A stretch of 64,000 nucleotides of DNA from Earliella scabrosa (lineage: Eukaryota; Basidiomycota; Agaricomycetes; Polyporales; Polyporaceae). Both the position numbers and the translations under genes were made by a program. Shown piece by piece: positions 51,672-63,076 of this stretch. Positions within the stretch are counted from its first letter, which is position 1; each line of letters starts with the position of its first letter. The notes beneath the pieces were generated by a model. It was not told the DNA's origin. It saw only the letters and a list, made by a program, of their open reading frames with translations, and made no database searches. The DNA is taken from NCBI GenBank assembly GCA_022605405.1, contig JABYQQ010000007.1, positions 1,550,001-1,614,000 of the forward strand, given 5' to 3'.

Positions 51672-52957
51672 CTACGCCCAGACCTGGAAGCGTACAAGTC
51701 AGCAGCAGTGGTATGACGACGGATATGAGAAACGAACCCTGAGTGTGCTGTCCCAGCTGCCCGTGCACAACGCCATACCGTCGGAGCTGACACCGAGGCA
51801 GCTGACACGGTTCTCGTGGCCAGTCAAAACACCGACCCGCTCGCCCTTGAGAGTGTCCCACACGTTGCACGTCCAGTCATCATAGCCGCCAAAGAGGATG
51901 CGGCCAGAGATGCTGAACGCGACGGAGGTGATACCGCAAAGGATGTTATCGTGAGTGAATGCGTTCAACTCGCGGTCAGCACGGATGTCGAACAACCGGC
52001 ACGATGCATCATCAGAACCAGTAGCGAACGCATCTCCGTTAGGGAAGAAGCTATTTTTCCCAGTCAGCGTTCCCGGCGATGACCTGGTGAAGTGTTGGCA
52101 CAGACCTGACTGCGTTGATGTCCGACTCATGACCAGTGAAGGTCTGGGTCGCCTTGCCGCTGCGGATGTCCCAAAGCTTGGCAGTCGCGTCGCAGGCACC
52201 AGAGACGAAGACGTTCTGGTTGGGACCAAGGGACAGGCTAGATGGCGAATGTTGAGACGAGATGTCCGATTGGAGCAACAACCCGACGAGCGCGACGACT
52301 TACCTCATCACATCACCAGTATGGTCGCTGAATTCCACCACCCGGACGCCTGCCTCGATATCCCACAACATGCAGGTCATATCACCCGAACTGGTGACGA
52401 TTTGGCGGTCGTTGAGGAAGCGGCAGCAGCTGAGGTAACCGGAGTGTGCGCTGAGCTCGCGGGCGCCCTTGACGTTGTTGCCCTCCTTGGAGTGAAGGTT
52501 GTAGATGGAGCAAATGTTGTCGAGACCACCGCAGGCGACAAAGTTGCCAGAGGGGGAGTATGCGCAGGTCATGACCCAGCTAGAACGAAGGGGGATAGCG
52601 TGGACCTTGTTGGTGGTGTAGGCGTCCCAGACGATAAGCTTTCCGTCCTGGGATGCAGAGACGAGGTGACGGCGGTCCGTGGCCCAGTGCATGGCATAGA
52701 TCTTTGCAAGGTGACCGCGGAGAGCGCGACGGGGACGCATGACGACACGGGGCAAGGCAGGCACCTCGTTGGCCATCGCCCGCACTGCGTTCGCGCCGTG
52801 TAAGTCAGCAAACAAGGGTCTGTAGAAGGGGACGGTACTTACAGGAAGTGTCAGCTGAAGACTCCCTCTTTGCGCGGATTTTCTCCTTCAGACTCTCTGC
52901 CTCACGCCGCGCAGCGGCGATACGCTCCTGGATATCTCCCTGGGGTGACTGGGACAT
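51672..52957 (-). CDS. GPB1: Heterotrimeric G-protein beta subunit
   Basis: Exons 52957-52843, 52784-52304, 52237-52106, 52050-51738 and 51683-51672 encode 350 residues, the usual G-beta length. The first 40 residues ([22 protein letters not shown]) are the helix that pairs with G-gamma. Seven WD repeats follow, beginning [13 protein letters not shown]...[10 protein letters not shown] and ending [55 protein letters not shown] and [10 protein letters not shown] are classic G-beta signatures. It transmits pheromone and nutrient signals from G-protein-coupled receptors. The acceptor at 52785 (not the nearer CTACAG) is needed to give DTSLRAMANEV. The last exon is only 12 nt and encodes V-W-A-stop, closing the seventh blade. 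Confidence 0.96.
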
Positions 52958-55855
52958 GTTTTACGGCTTGAATGGGCAATTGAGGTGTTGAACGCTTCTG
53001 CTGGGTCGACAAAAGCCTGGACAGGTATAATGGGGAGAGACGGCGTTAGAGACGTGCTGGACCGCGTAGAGGGAGACCGACCGTGCGAGGGAAGGAAGCT
53101 GGGGAGAAAGAAGAGCTCAGGGGGTGAGAATATGATGGAAAGTTGCGTGGGAACCGACAGAGACTAGCGGAGGCTAGAACGATGTCGGGTGTGGAGGAGT
53201 CGGGGCCGCCAACGAGGACTGGAGGAGCGAGAGAGGCGGGGAAGATGGCGGGGAGGAGAGAGAGCGAGAGAGAGGCGGAGGGCGATGGCGACTGTCAACA
53301 GCAGTGGGAGCCTTGATGGCACCGCTCGCCCAGCCCCGGCCAGCGACGCTCCCCCTGTCGGACCTCCCCATTCTCGTCCCCGGCCCGCTCCGAATCCCGG
53401 CACCCCCGCCGGCACTCCCGCCGGCCTCGCCGCTCTCTCCGCCCTTGGGTGACGCGATACATACTCAACGCCGCCGGAGTCTATTCAACTTTTCTCTAAT
53501 CGCGCCCCCGACGCCGCGATGCATTACTCCCCCCTTTCTGCCAGCCCCTTCCGCTCCAGACCGTCCGACCCAGGAATGCCGCCGTACGCCGAAAGATCCT
53601 CCGTACCATCATCCTCAACGCAAACCTGATCAGAACGATCTCTTGTCATCTGGGCACCCAACCTTCTGCTCCGCCGATCCCAGCTTCCCGGAAAGTGCGC
53701 AGTACTCCTCGACGTTTGTGTGTATACCTATTCAACTTGAATCTCCGGTTACATGACTCACTCTGCGATGCGCTTACAGTCTGGACTCTGGACTTCAGTC
53801 CCGAGTGCGATTCCGAACCAAGGATCCTGGCGCACCGACCCCAATCGCAAGCTCCGGCTCGGTTCGATGCCCCGGTGACTCCTCCCAATTGCCTGGCTTC
53901 GGAATGGACGCGGTGCTTTCCACCCACGACGGCTACGTGTAACGTGTAAATGCTCCCCACTGCAAAACTATCACCCGCTCTGACTGGTCGGCGGTTGATC
54001 GTGCACAGATAACCGTTCTATCCCAGTAGTTGACGGCACCGATGTCAGACATGCTGTCGTCATGTTCGGGCAGCGTTGCAAGCCCGCGAAACTGGGACAC
54101 AACCACACGCCAAAGTCCACCTCCGATGTGTTGGCGTCGCAACCGTGTCCGCAACCGCATACTGTCCTTGAATCGCAATTTTCTTGTCTCGAGTCCTCGC
54201 TGCCGGCCATGCTTAATATCCGCCGATCGGAGCGCGGGCCACCAATAGCTGCGACAGCTGTGCGTCCAGCACTTCGTACAGGTATGTGTTTTCTCGCTGC
54301 GCGCGATTTCTTTCTGTGTACTTTGATCCATCGGAGTGCAGAGATTCACCTGCATTACCGTCGGCCTTTTGGCTCGTAATGACAAGCTTCTTGCGAACCG
54401 AGATCTCGAACAGCCAAATCGCGGGAAGGTCCGATTCCGAAGCTGTCCTAGGAAACCAATTATCACCAGTAGGCACCCCACAATAGGCGAGATCCACCAT
54501 TCGGCCTAGTCCTGCCATCCTCGAGGATGCACTCTTCCTGTGCCACGGCGGTAACGGATGACAAGTCCAGTGTTCTCAGTGAAAGGTTACCTGGTTTCGA
54601 GGCTGAGTTGCCTTACATTGCAACTGGGGAAGCAATTGCTCGCCTCGGATGCTGATCTCAATCTCCATACAGAGCATCGGTAGGGGCTCTTACGGCAACC
54701 CGCCAGAACACCGGGTGTCTAGATCCGAACGTCAACCACATCCACGAGACATGGGTTGCGATGCCCAGTTGGGGCTGTTGTTCTTTCTTGAATACTTGCC
54801 CAATATGGATGGCTATGCAATCGATCTGCCTCTCTCCCGTCTTTGCGCGGGATTACTTGCACTAAAAAGGCACACCGCCTGCGCCCACAACCGGTCCTCA
54901 ACATCGCACGATTGATCTGAAAATTCAATTTTGGACGTACAGGCCGGCACGTTGAGATCTGATTTACTCCATCGTTTGCGGTTTGGAACAAGGCAGGCTA
55001 CTCTGCGGACTGATTTTATCCAGATATGTTGTCTACGGGCGTTCCGATCCTTTGAGGGTCGCCTTACTCCAAGTTTATGGCGCCAGCCACAATCTAGCGC
55101 GCTCGGGTCGCCATCAATAGCACACACAAGTCTTCCGCTCATGCATCGGTCTCGGCGTCGTATAGGAATAGGATTGCATATTTGAAGGTAAGTGTCACAT
55201 TCCTTATTCTCCTCGCTTGGTTGACATACTGGGACCCGCTCCGGCATAGCAAATTACGAACCACATACTCAGCTTCAACAATCCGTGATGGGGAGGTGCG
55301 GCAATTCGGTTCTGCACACGTGTAAATCCTAGGAACCTGACGGAAAACTCCAGCGAGATGTCTGTCCAGTGTAGCTGGGAGCTCAACTTCTGGTGATCAC
55401 CCGGTGTACCACATCCCATCCGCCCGCGACGCGCTCCCTGACTCATGTCCCGCGGAAGATGCACAACTTGCGCCCCCCCCCTCCATCGACTCCGTTTGAC
55501 TCTTGTCGAGACACCCCGGTGCGCAGCGGGGTGTCTTTGCATTCCAATCAGGGACGCATCTGCGTCTCCGGATAGGCGTTCACACTGCTTGTTCTGTCGC
55601 TCTCCTTTGCGGTCCTGTCTGCGCTGTGACATCATGTGCGTTCTCGGCATCCCGACGGTGCATTGGTCTCCCAAGTATCGCAGATGCTCGGTTCTCGCAA
55701 GTATCGCTCAGCCACATCTGGAGGTATATATGCCTAGCAGGATATCGAGGTTCAGACCATTCCCTCTCGTTCAGCTTTCTCCAAGTTTTCGACCCAGGAC
55801 TCGCTTTCTTCTTTGTTCTTCTTCGTCTCTTTACCCAACTCACCTACAACTCGCA
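52958..55855. other. 2.9 kb gene-poor stretch before the mini-dsRBD cluster
   Basis: The left 400 bases are purine-rich on the plus strand and form the G-beta promoter. Farther right, composition shifts to less GC. I see only short interrupted frames on both strands, without motifs. A frame at 53304-53756 is Pro-rich and unsupported. No transposon hallmark was found. Confidence 0.45.
55725..55731 (+). promoter_or_regulatory. TATA box of mini-dsRBD gene A
   Basis: TATATAT lies 125 bases before the start codon, with a CT-rich leader in between. Genes B and C have comparable elements, which supports the call. Confidence 0.5.
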
Positions 55856-56218
55856 ATGTCCGACCGTGAGTGACCAATTTCCAGATCTTCGCGTACTGAT
55901 ATTGATCCATCCGGATATCGTGCAGACTGGCGTATGCAATTTAACAACTACTGCCAACGCAACAACCTCCAAGCATATGTCTCCTGGCCGAACCCCATGC
56001 AGACGGGTCCTCAGAATGCCCCAACTTGGACTGCCTCCGTGTACTGTAAGTGGACAGTATGAGTTTCATATCGGCGATCTCCCCGTACTGATTCCGTGCG
56101 GCATCCCTCAGTTAATGGGATTGAATATGGACGTGGCTCCGCTAACACCGTTGGAGCGGCCCGTGAGATTGCCGCGGAGATGGCCTTGAAAGCTCTTTGG
56201 AGTCAACGAGGCTACTAG
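55856..56218 (+). CDS. Mini dsRNA-binding-domain protein A
   Basis: Exons 55856-55865 (10 nt), 55926-56045 and 56112-56218 encode 78 residues, essentially one double-stranded-RNA-binding domain. Alpha-1 is WRMQFNNYCQRN; beta strands follow (QAYVSWPNP, TWTASVYFNGIEYG); then GSANTVGAAREIAAEMALKAL forms the last helix. The usual domain end G-x-G-x-S-K-K-x-A-K-x-x-A-A-x-x-A-L is preserved in spacing, but all three lysine positions differ (V, G, R), so RNA binding may be weak or replaced by protein contacts. Exon 2 (120 nt) equals exons 2 plus 3 of gene B (27 + 93), and the last exons are identical in length (107). It is therefore a paralogue lacking one intron. Function unknown. Confidence 0.7.
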
Positions 56219-57492
56219 TGCGCGTGGTAAGCTACCCGCTCCCGTTATGAGCTCCGCACGCTGAAGCGGTTTTGCCAGGATCCTCCCTCGGTGCATCGCC
56301 GGACTCTGCTCCGCTCTAATCTACTCTCGGACTCTTCTAATTGCTTGCAACGCGCCTCATGTATCAATACCGACACTGGGCGGACTGGATCTGTGTGGTC
56401 TTAGGGACTCATGACTATCTGGCCTGGGCCTTGCTGCTCTCGCTCTCTCTGCTGTAGCCACCTCTTTGTAGCCTTGCAGATGCTTTCAATGCAATCCTCG
56501 AACATCCACTCGTGCGACCTCTTGCCTACCGCTCGTTCGATACTCGGGTCTGCTATGCACGGCGAGAAGCCTAGGGCTAGGATGCTGGCGCATTACCAAG
56601 CTCAGTATGACTTCACCCTCTCTCCGCGCTTTCAGCAGCCAGGGGCGCTAATCTCCGGCTAATTTTCCGAGGAGTGGGAGTCGACGCGCACACCTTGCTC
56701 CCTCCGGGTCCTTTTATCTGGTAGCGAATTCTACCATGTTGGGGCCTTATTCTTCGCCTTGAGAACACAGCGCCGCGTTCTACGCACGACATGCGACGAC
56801 ATCGAGGACGAGCCCGGTGCTCCCAGCCGATGTTCTCATTGCCTCACCGCTCACTGCGCGAGGACCCACGCATCCGGCAGGCCTGGCCCCGCCGCCTCGC
56901 AGATCGTGGCCTACTGCAAGCGGCCGATCGGAGCAGGCTAATTAGGTGGAGGATGGGGGCGCATCCCGCGAAACCGCCCTTCGGTTTCGCTTCCGTCGAG
57001 GTGAGCATCTCCGAATCTCCGTTGCTTGCAGGTCTGCCGCTCTCCGCTTTAAACCGCGCTGCTCTCTCTCTGGAGTCCTTCTTTCGCCCGTTCCGACGTT
57101 CTCAATGCGTCCGACGTTCCCCTCGCGCCGACCCGTGTAGGGCTGCCCAGGGTCACGACGCCTTATTGGGCAATGGAACCGCCCCTCGAGGGTGCTCTTC
57201 CGGAGTTCGACCTATGGAGTGCCATTGGTACATCCCCGTACGTGATCTCCTAACTCCTACTTGGTGTTGCACGATCGAGAGGCCTGTGATGCACAAGGCG
57301 CACAATGTTCATTAGAAGGCTAGAATCCCTCGCGCCCTGGCGTTCTCAACTCCCTTCCTTGTCACCGCAACACCGTCGCTGCAGTCGTCAGGAAGGGGGC
57401 CGATGGCTCGAGGGCAGCGAGGCACGGTGTATATAGCAGCAGCGATGGTTGTACCTGGTGAGATTCAGCAAGAGAGCAGAACGTAGAGTAGA
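56219..57492. other. 1.3 kb spacer between dsRBD genes A and B
   Basis: No further dsRBD copy was recognised. Small frames on the plus strand (for example 56791-57315) are Arg/Ala/Ser-rich with no motif. The right end carries the TATA box of gene B. Confidence 0.45.
57430..57436 (+). promoter_or_regulatory. TATA box of mini-dsRBD gene B
   Basis: TATATAG lies 63 bases upstream of the start codon, a typical position for a TATA-driven fungal gene. Confidence 0.55.
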
Positions 57493-57914
57493 ATGTCTAG
57501 CAACAGCGGCAGCAACGGTACGTGCTCCTTGTCTTGGTGCTTGTCGTACGACGACTCACGGGCTTGCGCAGAGGGCGGAGCGATTGCGCTCAACAACTGT
57601 ATGCTCATTGCTAACTCTCTCGCCAGTCAATCTATCTTACTTATCGACACTCCCTAGATCTCCAGGCCAAGAACAAGGCTGCCGAGCTGAGCTGGGAGGA
57701 TACATTCACTGGACCGCGCCACGCCGGTGAATGGACCTCAAGTTGCAAGAGTACGTGGCACGTCACGTTGCCCTCATGCTGATCTGATCAAGCTTCTACT
57801 TTAATAGTTGACGGCCAAGTCATCGCCAGTGGTACCGGGCCACAGAAGAACGTCGCCCGGGATGCCGCTGCTAGGGAGGCACTTCCCATTCTGATTGCCA
57901 AGTTCGGTGCCTAG
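57493..57914 (+). CDS. Mini dsRNA-binding-domain protein B
   Basis: Exons 57493-57517, 57572-57598, 57658-57750 and 57808-57914 encode 83 residues. After a short MSSNSGSN leader the protein is a single dsRBD: alpha-1 ALNNYLQAKNKAAELSWED, strands GEWTSSCKIDGQVIASG, and the last helix GTGPQKNVARDAAAREALPIL. The first lysine of the K-K-x-A-K motif is kept; the others are N and R, so one basic contact is substituted conservatively. All introns are phase 1, as in genes A and C. The domain normally binds A-form RNA through alpha-1, the beta1-beta2 loop and the lysine helix. No second domain or catalytic region is present, so it can act only as a binder or adaptor. Confidence 0.78.
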
Positions 57915-59961
57915 AAGGTCCAGCGAGCCCGCCGTGGCTTGGTGCCCGTACAGTCTTCGTTTCAGCTGTTGTGTTCGTGTTCTCTGTCCTGTGTGCTTGT
58001 GCATGTCTCCGCCATCGTGTAATCTATGTCTCGGCATTGTGTGTTCCGATCATGTTGCTCCATTAGTTCCTTGCTCGATCCCCTAGAATACTTCGCACTT
58101 CACACTGCTCAGGTAGCATTTGTCCATGCTTTCGTGTGTATTGACATCCTGCTGTATTTTTGGATCTTCTTGCGTGCGTGTCTGAAGACTGACGCGGAGT
58201 TAGACGCCGCGAACTTGTTCCTGAGCGCCATCCCGCGTCAGGGGCGCAATGAACTCTCGTCGACTTGTTGACAACGCCAGTATGACACCGACAGCCTGAG
58301 CGAGCTGCGTCTCGGCATCCATTCAGTAGTCGTATGGTTGCCGCATGTCTCCAACGTCGCCTTCATACCGGTGGGAGCGGTATCTCGCGAGTCGATCAGA
58401 TCCGCGTCTACCCCGTTGCGGTGAGATGTTGCATTGAGATCGCATGCGCATGCTTGAACCACTGCGCAACAGAGGTGGGTGCAGATGTTCGAGATATCTG
58501 CAGTGCTGACGTTGATATCGACGAATCCGACCGCAGGAAGCATATATTGCATCCCGATCGATAACGCGATCACAGGAGACAGCCTGAGCATATATCGTGC
58601 TCGGCAGGCATCCCAGTCTGCCCTGCTTGTGCCACAGTGACAGACGCGGCGCGTTGCGGACGACGCAGCTTTTGTTGCGGTCAATATATCCTGTGGACGA
58701 TTGGCCCAGACGCCTTTCAACCTGTCGGACGACATGACGTATGGTGTGGTTCAAAACCCCGCCTCTCCGCTGTACAGATGATCCAAACGATCACTCGCCG
58801 GTCGAAACTCAGACGCGGCATTGTTCTGGTCTCACACCGCCGTGGGTCGTGGAGAAGTGGCGGCCGTCATAACCAGCACGTTACAATCATCCAGACGGCC
58901 TGGACTTGTCAGCCGTTGGTGCCGGTGCGCACTGCGTGGCCAAGGATGCGGAGTGTGAAGTTAGCCATCTTGATATCATAAGATGACATCTGTCTTCCGG
59001 CTCAACGGACTTGTTCCGTTGCCAGTGCTACCCACACGCCGACGCGGTGCGGTTAACCGGAGGTCATGTTTCACCTCTTTTTGGCGCATCCACTCTGGCG
59101 GTGCGAGACGCCTAGTTGTCGGCAGGCGCCATGTCTGGAGGTGTGTTCCACTAAACCCCTGAAGACCCTGAAGGAGTGCTGACGTCGTGTCTCCCGACAG
59201 CATGCCGCGAGGTCCACGCTGCCTTTGCCCGACTCATCCGTCGCCTGACATGTCTTTAGCTCCCAGCTTGCTAAAGCAGTGTTTCACGACAGGGAAATTA
59301 ACGGGACGCTGCCGCTGGCAGAATACAAGGCACATGCTGTGTAGGCGATATTGTCAAGTGCTACGAGTCGGAAGGAGATTCCAAGCAGTAACCCGCGGTA
59401 CGCGCGTAGCCTCTAAATAATTCGCCGGCGTTCCTAACCGCACACACCGGACAGAGTATCGCTCAATTATTGCTTGTGGACCCTTGGACCTTTGAAGCAG
59501 GCGAAGCTTGGTCCATAATTTCCCCGGGCCGACCATCGACCTCGATCGGTCTTTGCATCTGCGAAGCGTGACCCGCAGTGCGGGGAGAATGAATCAGCAT
59601 GTCCTCAGAGATGGATCGTTGAGACAGGTATCGTCTCACACAAGCGGCCAAGTCCAGTCGGAGGTTTGTACTTCATTGCCCGTGGCAGGACCTCGTCCGA
59701 CCTTGCCTCCGGTGAGATGTCTCGATGACGGCATTTCGGAGCCAGACCGTCAACCACAATCCCGTCCTGTCGTGCGCACACAGTGCCCGAACACCCGGAG
59801 GACAGTATGCTCCTGACTAGCAGCGGAACAAGATGGCTGGCTGGAAAACGAGCGCAGAAAACGGTACGTATAAAGGGTCGACCAGCTCTCAAGTTTTCAG
59901 CATCGAGCAACATTCACTCACTTCCTCGTTCTACGCAACATATCCACCGAGCATCTTCACC
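57915..59961. other. 2 kb spacer between dsRBD genes B and C
   Basis: Moderate GC, with small frames on both strands (the longest 58238-58735 on minus, Cys/Thr/Ala-rich) and no recognisable domain. Some pieces look like degraded coding sequence, but I cannot assign them. The right end carries the TATA box and leader of gene C. Confidence 0.4.
59869..59875 (+). promoter_or_regulatory. TATA box of mini-dsRBD gene C
   Basis: TATAAAG lies 93 bases upstream of the start codon and is followed by a leader with ACTCACTTCCTCGTTCTACG-type sequence. Confidence 0.55.
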
Positions 59962-60367
59962 ATGGGCACCCGTATGCGACTAGTCTTTTCCCCACCGTCT
60001 TCCGGCTAACCGATCTTCTCACCTTCAGGCTACAACAACGACCTGAACAACTGCAAGTCGTGTAATCGAAGTATCGTATGGCTGAATTAACCTTGTACAT
60101 CTCATGTAGATCTGCAAAGACAAGGTCAGCTTGCCGCTCTCCACTGGGGCGAGGAGCAGGTTGGTCCACCCGGTCAGCGAGCGTGGCAGATGACTTGCTT
60201 CAGTGAGTGGGCGTGCTTCGATCCTTCTACTCCACGGACAATGACACATGATCCGACGCCCAGTCAACGGTGAACAGAAGGGAGTCGGAATCGCCGCTCA
60301 GAAGGGCGCCGCCAAAGACCTCGCCGCGAGGGAAGCCTTGGTTAATCTCGGACTCCTCACCGGCTAG
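59962..60367 (+). CDS. Mini dsRNA-binding-domain protein C
   Basis: Exons 59962-59971 (10 nt), 60029-60052, 60110-60202 and 60264-60367 encode 76 residues: one dsRBD. Alpha-1 is RYNNDLNNYLQRQGQL, then AALHWGEEQVGP, strands RAWQMTCFINGEQKGVG and the helix AAQKGAAKDLAAREALVNLGLL. It keeps K and the A-K pair of the K-K-x-A-K motif (pattern Q-K-G-A-A-K), so it is the member closest to the canonical RNA-binding surface. Intron 2 (60053-60109) uses a GC donor (GCAAGT); this is required to reach the LNNYLQ junction shared with gene B. Exon 3 is 93 nt in both B and C. The splicing makes the gene invisible in any single frame. Confidence 0.75.
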
Positions 60368-61148: not shown

Positions 61149-63076
61149 TCATTTGTCGACCTCCATGCCATTAGACGAGCCGTCCGTTCTTCGCTCCCAA
61201 ATCTGTGCCGATGCCGTTAGTACGGGGGCTGCGATACCAATGCCCAATGAGAGACGAACCTGTAACATGGTCTCCCCGAGAACGATCATTTCCTTTCTGA
61301 TTTCTTCCACGATGAGGTCCTGAATCTGGAACCATTTCTCGTTTTCGCCTCCACCTGCTCCGGCTCGGAGATGGACTTTCCACACCGTGCTCTCCTTGTC
61401 GCGCGTGGTGCCTGCCGCTGACTCGTGTGTGACGTTGGCAATCAGGTCGTAGACAGTAGAGGGATGCGAGGCGGGCGCGTCGAGGTCTTTGAGATGATCA
61501 CGGAGTATTGACATCAGTTACGGCGGTGACTCGATTGACACGGCCTACGTACATTCTCTGAAGTCGAGGCCGCGTAGTGGGAAGTTTACAATGGTGGGAT
61601 TCTTCTCCTCTACGAAAACATTTTTCGTGAACCGCTTGAAGTGAAGGATGATGTAAGGAGGTAGTCGCTGACATTTGAAGCGGCGCAATTGGCCCGAGGA
61701 TTCCTGCGAGAGCGGATCAGTAGATGACATCAACTCACTGGAGCTTGCTAGACCGTACCTGTGTCTTCTGGCCATCGTATTTGGCAAGTACAGACTGAAT
61801 GCTGACCTGCGGAATGATGTTCTTCTCGACAGCATCTTGGAACAAGGGCGGTGGCGGCAAATCGACGGCCAAGAAGAGAAAGGGAGATACAGTCGACTTG
61901 ATCTCTATCGTTTGTATCGTTAACTCCGCGGAGCGTATCATCCACAGTCACGACACACCTCGATCGATGTCGAAGCGAGGCTTCTCGTTGCCTCCGGTGT
62001 CGGGCCGAACGAGGACCTGCTGTGTCTCCATCCGAACCTCGCCTTGGAAGGTGGAAAAGATGACGCCTGGTGAGAGCGTGTGATTATGAGCACAGTCCGG
62101 TCGCGGACCAACAGGCGACATACTGGAGTTTTTCTTCTTCGTCCCGCCCATGTCCTTGTGGAGATGGTTGAGTAGCCAACCCAGGAACTCTACCGGATCT
62201 CCTTGCTTCTCAAGACTATATCTCCCAGCACTCGTTCTGTTGACCTCCTGCAAGAATTCGTGGGGACTGACTTGACTTTTGAATAATCGCGGGTTCCATA
62301 TCTTCTTCGCGAGACCAGCAAAACGTTTCAACATTTCGGACTCTTTGCCACGAAAGTTGGAAAGCAAGAGGTGGTCTCGGAGTGGCGGTATATGAAGGAG
62401 GGAATGAATCACGACATTCATGTAATCATTTCGCTTGATATTGTTCAGCCCGATGTATCCAGGGATGTAAGGTTTATTTGATAGATCATAGGAAGGCTTC
62501 TGGAGATGCGCGGGTGTAGACAGGGTAGAAGTGGATGTCGAAGTGAATGAGGGGGCGAGTACGAACGATATGTCTTCCAGGGAGGGGTCTGACACAAGAT
62601 ATCCGTCGGGCAGAACGTACACCTGGTGGCAGGGTTCCATTGTGAACAAGTAAGGGCTACAATATACACTCACCTTGGTCGTTTCCAGGTTGATGAATAC
62701 GTGATGATCATCGTGGATGGCATGGGCGTAGGCGTATGAATTCCGCCCTCGACCCTGGAAATACTTGCCGCAGACGAGGCAACCATATATGTTGATGTTG
62801 GACAACGAGACAGAGCACACTTTCTCGAAGTCGAAGTCCAGCACAGCTCTGTTTATCTGGTTGCATGGTATTGAGAGCTTGAATCGGTTCACTCTATGCG
62901 CAAGCGACACGCACCGTGTCAAGGTACAGGTCTGAGGCTCTTAGTGGTTCCTGTGTTCCGGACGACACGGTCGCGTCCCCGTCTTCCTCCTCATCCTCAG
63001 CGGTCTCCACACGAACTCTTTTTGCGGGGCGATCGGTGTTCTCGGCCGGGGTCGCGTGTTTGGTGGGAGCAGACAT
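61149..63076 (-). CDS. SAD1: Sad1/USP39-type spliceosomal pseudo-deubiquitinase
   Basis: Exons 63076-62915, 62856-62674, 62622-62124, 62066-61959, 61904-61759, 61703-61553, 61486-61260 and 61202-61149 encode 509 residues. The N-terminus is acidic and basic with PAKRVRVE. The ZnF-UBP domain follows (INRAVLDFDFEKVCSVSL, CLVCGKYFQGRG, SYAYAHAIHDDHHVFINLET). The USP fold follows (PGYIGLNNIKRNDYMNVVIHSLL, PHEFLQEVN, DPVEFLGWLLNHLH, KSTVSPFLFLAVDLPPPPL, PPYIILHFKRFTKN, NFPLRGLDFREY, VYDLIANVTHE, WFQIQDLIVEEI). The catalytic cysteine position of active USPs (N-T-C-Y-M-N) is N-D-Y-M-N here, as in yeast Sad1 and human USP39, which act in tri-snRNP assembly and splicing without protease activity. The first join (DLYLDT to INRAVLD) required the acceptor at 62857. 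Confidence 0.95.

Follow-up and report, generated by a model that had tools for sequence, protein, structure and literature searches.

Three small genes stand in a same-strand tandem array within the window, by which we mean the whole 64,000-nt stretch of DNA from the wood-decay mushroom Earliella scabrosa analyzed here (Table 1). Joining the predicted exons reproduced the spans given in the original prediction, together with its products of 78, 83, and 76 residues and its division of each gene into three or four exons of 10 to 120 nt (three, four, and four exons, respectively). All eight introns resulting from these predicted joins are 54 to 66 nt long and in phase 1; seven have a GT donor and one a GC donor (GCAAGT), and all eight have an AG acceptor. 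The branch-point pattern CTNAY is present in seven of the eight introns but lends them weak support, because the pattern is loose and is expected by chance in roughly one intron in three (hand estimate). Within the Earliella scabrosa genome, to which the comparison of intron sites was confined, the site between strands 2 and 3 also occurs in the copies C1, C6, C9, and C7:2410956 (DNA read by eye). Public records already hold all three genes as hypothetical proteins: gene 2 is identical to P0002, and genes 1 and 3 correspond to the last 78 residues of P0032 and the last 76 residues of P0001, respectively, both of these public models carrying an N-terminal extension.

Table 1. Genes, predicted introns, and upstream motifs of the dsRBD gene trio (positions are those of the window)
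Feature	Positions	Strand	Exons or phase	Remarks
Gene 1 (type A)	55856-56218	+	55856-55865, 55926-56045, 56112-56218 (10, 120, 107 nt)	78 aa, single dsRBD
Gene 2 (type B)	57493-57914	+	57493-57517, 57572-57598, 57658-57750, 57808-57914 (25, 27, 93, 107 nt)	83 aa, single dsRBD
Gene 3 (type C)	59962-60367	+	59962-59971, 60029-60052, 60110-60202, 60264-60367 (10, 24, 93, 104 nt)	76 aa, single dsRBD
Gene 1 intron 1	55866-55925	+	phase 1	follows the 10-nt first exon, as in gene 3
Gene 1 intron 2	56046-56111	+	phase 1	between second and third strands; site common to all three genes
Gene 2 intron 1	57518-57571	+	phase 1	
Gene 2 intron 2	57599-57657	+	phase 1	within LNNY motif, as in gene 3
Gene 2 intron 3	57751-57807	+	phase 1	site common to all three genes
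Gene 3 intron 1	59972-60028	+	phase 1	
Gene 3 intron 2	60053-60109	+	phase 1	GC donor; within LNNY motif, as in gene 2
Gene 3 intron 3	60203-60263	+	phase 1	site common to all three genes
TATATAT	55725-55731	+		131 nt upstream of gene 1 ATG; inside N-terminal extension of P0032
TATATA	57430-57435	+		63 nt upstream of gene 2 ATG
TATAAA	59869-59874	+		93 nt upstream of gene 3 ATG; inside N-terminal extension of P0001

The surroundings appear gene poor, as had been proposed: 31 stop-to-stop frames of at least 90 aa overlap 53.3 to 61.2 kb, and the six that were searched against Pfam gave no match at an E value of ≤0.1. The 300 nt upstream of each gene have no 7-mer in common on either strand; the only motifs noted there are of the TATA kind and lie at unequal distances from the start codons. 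No tRNA genes were found within the window, and blastn against plasmid records returned no match, a result that is expected and uninformative for a fungus.

Each joined product is a single dsRBD. All three exceeded the cutoff of 23 bits for the Pfam dsrm family (PF00035), the profile search that had been put forward as a check on the joined exons, with scores of 40.5 (gene 1), 35.6 (gene 2), and 28.9 (gene 3) bits; no other Pfam family scored above its cutoff in any of the three, i.e., no catalytic domain accompanies the dsRBD. A family hidden Markov model (HMM) built from 63 rows, with all Earliella rows left out to avoid circularity, scored the joined products at 117.8, 95.0, and 94.7 bits for genes 1, 2, and 3, respectively. 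When applied to the window, the same HMM gave six separate exon-level matches of 30.0 to 54.6 bits at the three genes, whereas shuffling the window 50 times at the mononucleotide level gave a best score of 13.0 bits, which excludes chance as the source of these matches. It detected no further family copy elsewhere in the window, where the sole other match at an E value of ≤1 (8.8 bits) fell within the shuffle range, or in the 10 kb flanking it on either side (best score, 4.7 bits). The predicted structures of gene 2 (P0002; pLDDT, 81.3) and of the gene 1 orthologue from Daedaleopsis (P0003; pLDDT, 84.9) are confident alpha-beta-beta-beta-alpha models, and both modeled folds are dsRBD-like. The best Protein Data Bank match of each is the first dsRBD of PKR, and the models also match dsRBDs of proteins with many roles, including mitoribosome chains.

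Relatives of the trio were found across the Agaricomycetes in public protein listings; fungal types, orders, and classes here are presumptive, being assigned from genus names. The three genes share with this Agaricomycete single-dsRBD family an LNNYxQ-type helix 1 (FNNYCQ in gene 1), the phase-1 intron between strands 2 and 3 (compared among the Earliella copies), and their placement in the trees. The first tree comprised 68 rows chosen from overlapping listings of 28 and 114 matches; the second added 39 of 44 further fetched proteins and dropped eight rows that were long, partial, or near-duplicate (P0096, P0077, P0052, P0063, P0049, P0017, P0040, and P0059). In these trees, which rest on 80 columns and contain many open forks, gene 2 belongs to the most widespread lineage, with members in several orders, gene 3 belongs to a second old lineage, and gene 1 belongs to a derived Polyporaceae-type lineage. 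A Moniliophthora “S5 DRBM domain-containing protein” was set aside by its name, which we take to denote the ribosomal S5 domain. In 11 of the 14 species with at least two types among the matches listed, different types lie on contigs of equal length. This points to a conserved cluster, probably one maintained among Polyporaceae-type fungi. The trio belongs to an old and apparently undescribed mushroom family; no paper on it appeared among the matches listed from open-licence articles in PMC (titles and beginnings of abstracts; e.g., the best 12 of 280 and the best 12 of 213), with subscription papers lying outside that search.

The original prediction was correct in seeing stand-alone dsRBD proteins of one family in a same-strand tandem, but its description of the family as local and expanding is not supported, since the three members fall in separate lineages that are common to other genera. 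The only close duplicate detected in the genome is C6, 82% identical to gene 2, and the two differ by 39 synonymous changes over 45.7 sites and 18 nonsynonymous changes over 149.3 sites. Their synonymous sites are already near-saturated, which, together with the trees, disfavors a recent tandem expansion.

The three genes differ systematically in their RNA-contact residues, a pattern that had been missed in the original prediction. None has all three lysines of the helix-2 KKxAK set, the corresponding residues being VGAAR in gene 1, KNVAR in gene 2, and KGAAK in gene 3. Gene 2, which alone has the His of the GPxH loop, is the nearest of the trio to a canonical dsRBD; gene 3 keeps the first and third helix-2 lysines, and gene 1 has neither the loop His nor the first or second lysine. 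The same division runs through the family. Among the 56 of 68 first-tree rows that were typed by hand (50 in types A to D and 6 “A-like,” with 12 unplaced rows left out), the loop His occurs in all 17 type B and all 9 type D rows and in none of the 13 type A or 11 type C rows. The first helix-2 Lys is found in 12/17 type B rows (2 others have Arg and 3 have Leu) and 11/11 type C rows, in no row of type A (0/13) or type D (0/9), and in three of the six A-like rows. Lys or Arg at the third position is nearly universal (A, 13/13; B, 17/17; C, 11/11; D, 7/9). The second helix-2 Lys is missing from types A, B, C, and D alike, and therefore gene 2 itself departs from the full canonical set. Most rows retain the helix-1 LNNYxQ, the GP loop (less so the Trametes-type C rows, which have GAGN), and the third-position Lys or Arg. 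In type B, acidic proteins predominate (pI 4.5 to 8.1; ≤6.8 in 15/17), which is unusual for an RNA binder, and type A proteins are mostly basic (pI >7 in 11/13).

Gene 1 is well conserved even though, of the three, it seems the poorest candidate for gripping RNA. Its orthologues in the six other species compared are 68 to 82% identical to it, the highest value being that of Daedaleopsis P0003. Of five species, four show stronger conservation of gene 1 than of gene 2 (identities to Earliella for genes 1 and 2, respectively, of 79% and 53% in Fomes, 68% and 50% in Ganoderma, 70% and 50% in T. cingulata, and 78% and 66% in P. arcularius), and in the fifth, Dichomitus, the two are level (68% and 69%). 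Gene 1 is not the most conserved member everywhere, as gene 3 reaches 72% in Dichomitus, and type D is also conserved (74 to 76% to two Trametes-type species).

The Earliella genome is rich in RNAi genes, among them Argonaute, RNA-dependent RNA polymerase (RdRP), and two double-RNase-III (Dicer-like) loci. No dsrm match up to an E value of 5 was obtained in the C-terminal part of the Dicer-like frame on C9 or in one C-terminal exon of the C8 locus; the C8 exon gave a very weak match to the family HMM (4.2 bits; E value, 2.7). A tie of the trio to RNAi or dsRNA sensing is an inference. Our preferred reading, tentative and of somewhat less than even confidence, is that the trio represents three paralogous single-dsRBD genes of an Agaricomycete-wide family, in which genes 2 and 3 would serve as minimal binders of dsRNA and probably feed RNAi, with gene 1 as a partner or modulator that faces proteins. 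Gene 2 and, with less support, gene 3 would be small soluble proteins gripping A-form dsRNA with one domain each; they may pass dsRNA to the RNAi machinery (Dicer, RdRP, and Argonaute) or shield it from that machinery, and they might in this way provide in trans the dsRNA binding for which no recognizable domain stands at the ends of the organism's own Dicers. Such help would be less needed if those Dicers have a divergent dsRBD, as the C8 exon match might indicate; fungal Dicer C termini may carry one that is missed by Pfam, according to the available part of one report (PMC12663654). The loss from gene 1 of the loop His and first two helix-2 lysines, despite its conservation, makes protein contacts likelier than RNA binding as its main role, and it may act as a dimer partner or modulator of genes 2 and 3 or of a nuclease, like the protein-binding dsRBDs that are elsewhere termed type B (a usage distinct from our paralogue type B). 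As a counterpoint, lysine loss is no proof of lost binding, type A being mostly basic with its third-position Arg or Lys kept. The preferred reading also has to accommodate the acidity of type B, the several dsRBDs per chain of known Dicer partners, and the three A-like rows that keep the first Lys. In animals, the binding of Dicer by separate proteins through such a protein-binding dsRBD is established (PMC10328071, available portion), and no dsRBD partner of a fungal Dicer is named in the excerpted literature on Dicer and its partners.

It is possible, if on balance unlikely, that these proteins instead serve as general chaperones or buffers of dsRNA, unconnected with RNAi, and coat endogenous duplexes such as natural antisense-transcript pairs, mitochondrial RNA, or viral RNA so as to limit sensing or decay, with subtypes that differ in affinity. 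A single domain with a partial set of RNA contacts would suit that role, as would the structural matches to dsRBDs of many-role proteins, but a lone dsRBD usually binds weakly, type B is mostly acidic, and gene 1 is well conserved though it lacks the main RNA contacts. In favor of such a role, the available text of one study reports that natural antisense transcripts contribute to shaping the transcriptome of Pleurotus ostreatus fruiting bodies (PMC8893723). Rather less probable, in our judgment, is that all types are mainly protein-protein modules that reuse the dsRBD fold to form homodimers or to pair A with B or C as heterodimers, with RNA binding absent or of secondary importance in every type. 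The absence of the second helix-2 Lys from types A to D, the absence of the loop His from types A and C, the opposite charges of types A and B, and the existence of protein-binding dsRBDs (PMC10328071, in part) are consistent with this, but the general retention of LNNYxQ, the GP loop, and the third-position Lys or Arg, as well as dsrm scores above the cutoff, argues against it. We regard as more doubtful still a split, multigene counterpart of the animal and plant multi-dsRBD Dicer partners (TARBP2-like), in which gene 1 would be the protein-binding unit and genes 2 and 3 the RNA-binding units, clustered in Polyporaceae-type fungi. Finally, recent local duplicates drifting with no particular function would fit C6, which has no clear 5′ end and a partial public model, and the varying count of listed members between species, but are very improbable given the separate lineages, the excess of synonymous over nonsynonymous change between gene 2 and C6, and the identity of gene 1 to its orthologues.

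Under the preferred reading, of RNA-binding genes 2 and 3 with a protein-facing gene 1, the trio offers a lead on how these fungi handle double-stranded RNA. A widespread Agaricomycete family of minimal dsRBDs, with the gene 2 type in several orders, provides a short candidate list for dsRNA handling and Dicer partners. The division of RNA-contact residues among neighbors, in which the poorest expected binder is well conserved, may amount to a natural experiment in the passage of a dsRBD from RNA grip to protein contact.

Compared with known systems, the Earliella proteins are like the dsrm domain (e.g., PKR dsRBD1; PDB 1x49) in that all three pass its Pfam cutoff, but they differ in that the domain is nearly the entire protein and its contact residues are thinned and divided between paralogues. 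The suppressor of invertebrate iridescent virus 6, compared by its description only (PMC4231766, in part), is likewise a dsRNA-binding protein and interferes with RNAi; it is virus encoded, whereas the Earliella genes are chromosomal and intron bearing, and none of 66 pattern matches of gene 2 (P0002) to viral contigs was confirmed as a relative. TARBP2, R2D2/Loquacious, HYL1/DRB, and RDE-4 are also small noncatalytic proteins that mix RNA- and protein-binding dsRBDs (PMC10328071, available portion), but they carry several dsRBDs per chain, whereas the Earliella proteins carry one per chain of 76 to 83 aa and are distributed over several genes. The Agaricomycete “DRBM domain-containing protein” entries of UniRef and the Lyophyllum shimeji “putative double-stranded RNA binding motif containing protein” belong to the same family; the names seen there are automatic domain names, and types A to D, their shared contigs, and the split in contact residues come from the present analysis.

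The joined exons of the three genes encode proteins of 78, 83, and 76 residues (genes 1, 2, and 3), as originally predicted, and their identity as single double-stranded RNA binding domains (dsRBDs) also held, with scores of 40.5, 35.6, and 28.9 bits against the Pfam dsrm family (cutoff, 23) and no other family above its Pfam cutoff in any of the three products. A family HMM built without Earliella rows scored the joined products at 117.8, 95.0, and 94.7 bits and gave six exon-level matches at the trio (30.0 to 54.6 bits), against a best score of 13.0 bits in 50 mononucleotide shuffles of the window; the single extra match in the window at E ≤ 1 reached 8.8 bits. All eight introns are in phase 1 and 54 to 66 nt long. 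The first intron site is common to genes 1 and 3, the site at the LNNY motif is common to genes 2 and 3, and the site between the second and third strands is common to all three genes and recurs in phase 1 (DNA read by eye) in the copies on contigs C1, C6, and C9 and at C7:2410956. The gene-poor stretch is bordered on its left by a G protein beta WD40 gene (minus-strand frames 51702-52304 and 52303-52887; WD40_Gbeta scores of 187.5 and 289.5 bits) and on its right by a zf-UBP and UCH gene (minus-strand frame 61951-62940), which we take to be a ubiquitin hydrolase of Sad1/USP39 look.

The gene 2 product is identical to public Earliella scabrosa protein P0002 (C8Q76DRAFT_446897), and the gene 3 and gene 1 products match the C-terminal 76 residues of P0001 (C8Q76DRAFT_729540) and the C-terminal 78 residues of P0032 (C8Q76DRAFT_729525), so public E. 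scabrosa annotation already includes the domain, within hypothetical proteins. The N-terminal extensions of P0032 and P0001 cross TATA motifs at -131 (gene 1) and -93 (gene 3) from the ATG adopted here and are probably start-site errors. Among the 12 other type A rows (the gene 1 lineage), 8 have a short MS-type start resembling the adopted one (P0003, P0004, P0033, P0034, P0035, P0038, P0045, and P0061), P0006 carries a long extension, and the remaining 3 start later; on this comparison of sequences, the shorter starts of genes 1 and 3 appear more likely than the public ones.

Trio genes, public-model extensions, and other dsRBD loci in the Earliella genome (positions without a contig are those of the window)
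Feature	Location	Strand	Remark
Gene 1 (type A)	55856-56218	+	
Gene 2 (type B)	57493-57914	+	
Gene 3 (type C)	59962-60367	+	
N-terminal extension of P0032 (gene 1)	55634-55855		74 residues
N-terminal extension of P0001 (gene 3)	59833-59961		43 residues
Old gene 2 duplicate (L023)	C6:2576168-2576425	-	public model P0014 partial; no clear 5' end
Type D single-dsRBD gene (L025), apparently complete	from C1:2151775-2151921 on	-	83 aa; dsrm 23.6 bits
Gene 1-like single-dsRBD copy (L024)	C9:644633-644898		dsrm 24.9 bits
Longer Q/P-rich protein with terminal dsRBD (L026)	C7:2410956		dsrm match; shares phase-1 intron site
dsRBD after weak RNase III-like trace (E = 0.21)	C5:638898		dsrm match
DEAH-type helicase (frame read by eye) with dsRBD	C3:424643		dsrm match

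Three profile searches returned 28 (E ≤ 0.01), 114 (E ≤ 0.001), and 185 (E ≤ 1e-5; 120 of these listed) matches. The listed matches that carry an organism name all come from genera that we take to be Agaricomycetes, except for a bacterial RNase III in the 114-match search; orders in the tree were likewise presumed from genus names. Trees of 68 and 99 rows over 80 columns had many open forks, and both split the family into two halves (support, 98/99 in the 99-row tree, whose bootstrap had not settled). One half holds type A (12 rows from Polyporaceae-type species; 98/93) and type D, a clade of 18 rows (97/83) from Polyporales and Gloeophyllales plus one long-branch Thelephora row. The other holds the gene 2 lineage, type B (37 rows from Agaricales, Boletales, Russulales, and Polyporales; 96/96), and the gene 3 lineage, type C (9 Polyporaceae-type rows; 98/93), which adjoins Jaapia and Punctularia (96/94). 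Because the trio draws on both halves, it is not a fresh local duplication, and the local, expanding family first proposed gave way to members of separate lineages.

Elsewhere in the genome, the C6 copy is closest to gene 2 (82% identity). Over 65 codons, 39 synonymous changes per 45.7 sites and 18 nonsynonymous changes per 149.3 sites separate the two, indicating that the C6 copy is old and that its coding exons (3 and 4) are constrained. The type D gene lies on a different contig from the trio, which is on C7, no start exon was found for the gene 1-like copy on C9, and the Q/P-rich protein is a possible source of the family.

To judge linkage in other species, we compared the longest contig listed per protein, a proxy that was tabulated by hand and may stem from another strain. 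Two or more of types A (or the A-like rows of Trametes and Cubamyces), B, and C were listed for 14 species, and different types lay on an equal-sized contig in 11 of them, which is suggestive rather than conclusive since the contigs are long. All three types did so in Earliella and Trametes cingulata, and two types did so in Fomes, Dichomitus, Ganoderma leucocontextum, Cubamyces sp., T. meyenii, T. maxima, Pilatotrama, T. elegans, and Epithele. The types fell on unlike contigs in Cubamyces lactineus and Lentinus tigrinus, and Polyporus arcularius was undecidable, with consecutive model numbers and differing longest contigs. Dichomitus type C and one T. maxima A-like protein are listed on contigs apart from the linked ones, as do extra A or A-like copies of T. 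cingulata, Pilatotrama, and Cubamyces sp. Consecutive model numbers in T. cingulata (1516127/8), T. meyenii (1005545/6), and Epithele (96494/5) suggest real adjacency. In contrast, type D shared an equal-sized contig with A, B, or C in none of nine species, Earliella included, among the matches listed. These patterns are suggestive of clustering of types A, B, and C across Polyporaceae-type species.

AlphaFold models of gene 2 (P0002; 63 rows; pLDDT, 81.3; pTM, 0.66) and the gene 1 orthologue P0003 (55 rows; 84.9; 0.66) have alpha-beta-beta-beta-alpha topology, and both match PKR dsRBD1 (1x49) best in the PDB (TM by query length, 0.74 and 0.82, respectively); a sequence-profile search of solved chains placed ADAR1, PKR, and TARBP2 on top. 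The loop His and helix-2 positions contact RNA in dsRBDs. In an alignment to PKR dsRBD1, every B (17/17) and D (9/9) row has the His, and no A (0/13) or C (0/11) row does. In helix 2, the first Lys occurs in C (11/11) and B (12/17; otherwise 2 Arg and 3 Leu) but never in A (0/13) or D (0/9), none of the four types has the second, and the third position holds Lys or Arg in A (13/13), B (17/17), C (11/11), and D (7/9). The six A-like rows are less clear (first Lys, 3/6; second Lys, 2/6; His, 1/6).

Contrary to expectation, type A, with the fewest contacts, is not decaying. Gene 1 is better conserved than gene 2 in four of five species: identities between Earliella and Fomes, Ganoderma, T. cingulata, P. 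arcularius, and Dichomitus are 79, 68, 70, 78, and 68% for gene 1 and 53, 50, 50, 66, and 69% for gene 2, which leads by one point in Dichomitus. Gene 3, the best conserved of the trio in Dichomitus (72%), is 59% identical in Lentinus, 56% in T. meyenii, and 55% in T. cingulata; type D shares 74 to 76% identity with two Trametes-type species and 52% with Gloeophyllum. Most type B proteins are acidic and most type A proteins basic, and we speculate that such opposite charges would suit mixed complexes.

The genome has 18 exon-level Piwi matches on 5 contigs, 23 RdRP matches on 7 contigs, and 6 RNase III matches, with paired, Dicer-like domains at two loci (C8 and C9). The RdRP matches lie on C2, C15, C16, C33, and other contigs, and several of them contain in-frame stops, reflecting introns or decay. 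Neither the C-terminal portion of the Dicer-like frame on C9 nor one C-terminal exon of its C8 counterpart gave a dsrm match up to E = 5, and that C8 exon scored at chance level against the family HMM (4.2 bits; E = 2.7). A survey of fungal Dicers cautions that divergent dsRBDs may elude such profiles (PMC12663654).

The domain, the fold as modeled for gene 2 and the gene 1 orthologue, the lineages, their conservation, and the residue split are direct observations. Genes 2 and 3 may act as minimal dsRNA grips and gene 1 as a protein-facing relative that would form complexes, the trio being a modular accessory set for dsRNA handling. General dsRNA buffering, the main rival, is nearly as likely; our best reading is modular dsRNA handling, most plausibly within RNAi. 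We found no paper on the family, types A to D, the apparent cluster, or the residue split among the open-licence titles and abstract openings listed; the dsRBD itself is already known, and the family proteins carry automatic domain names.
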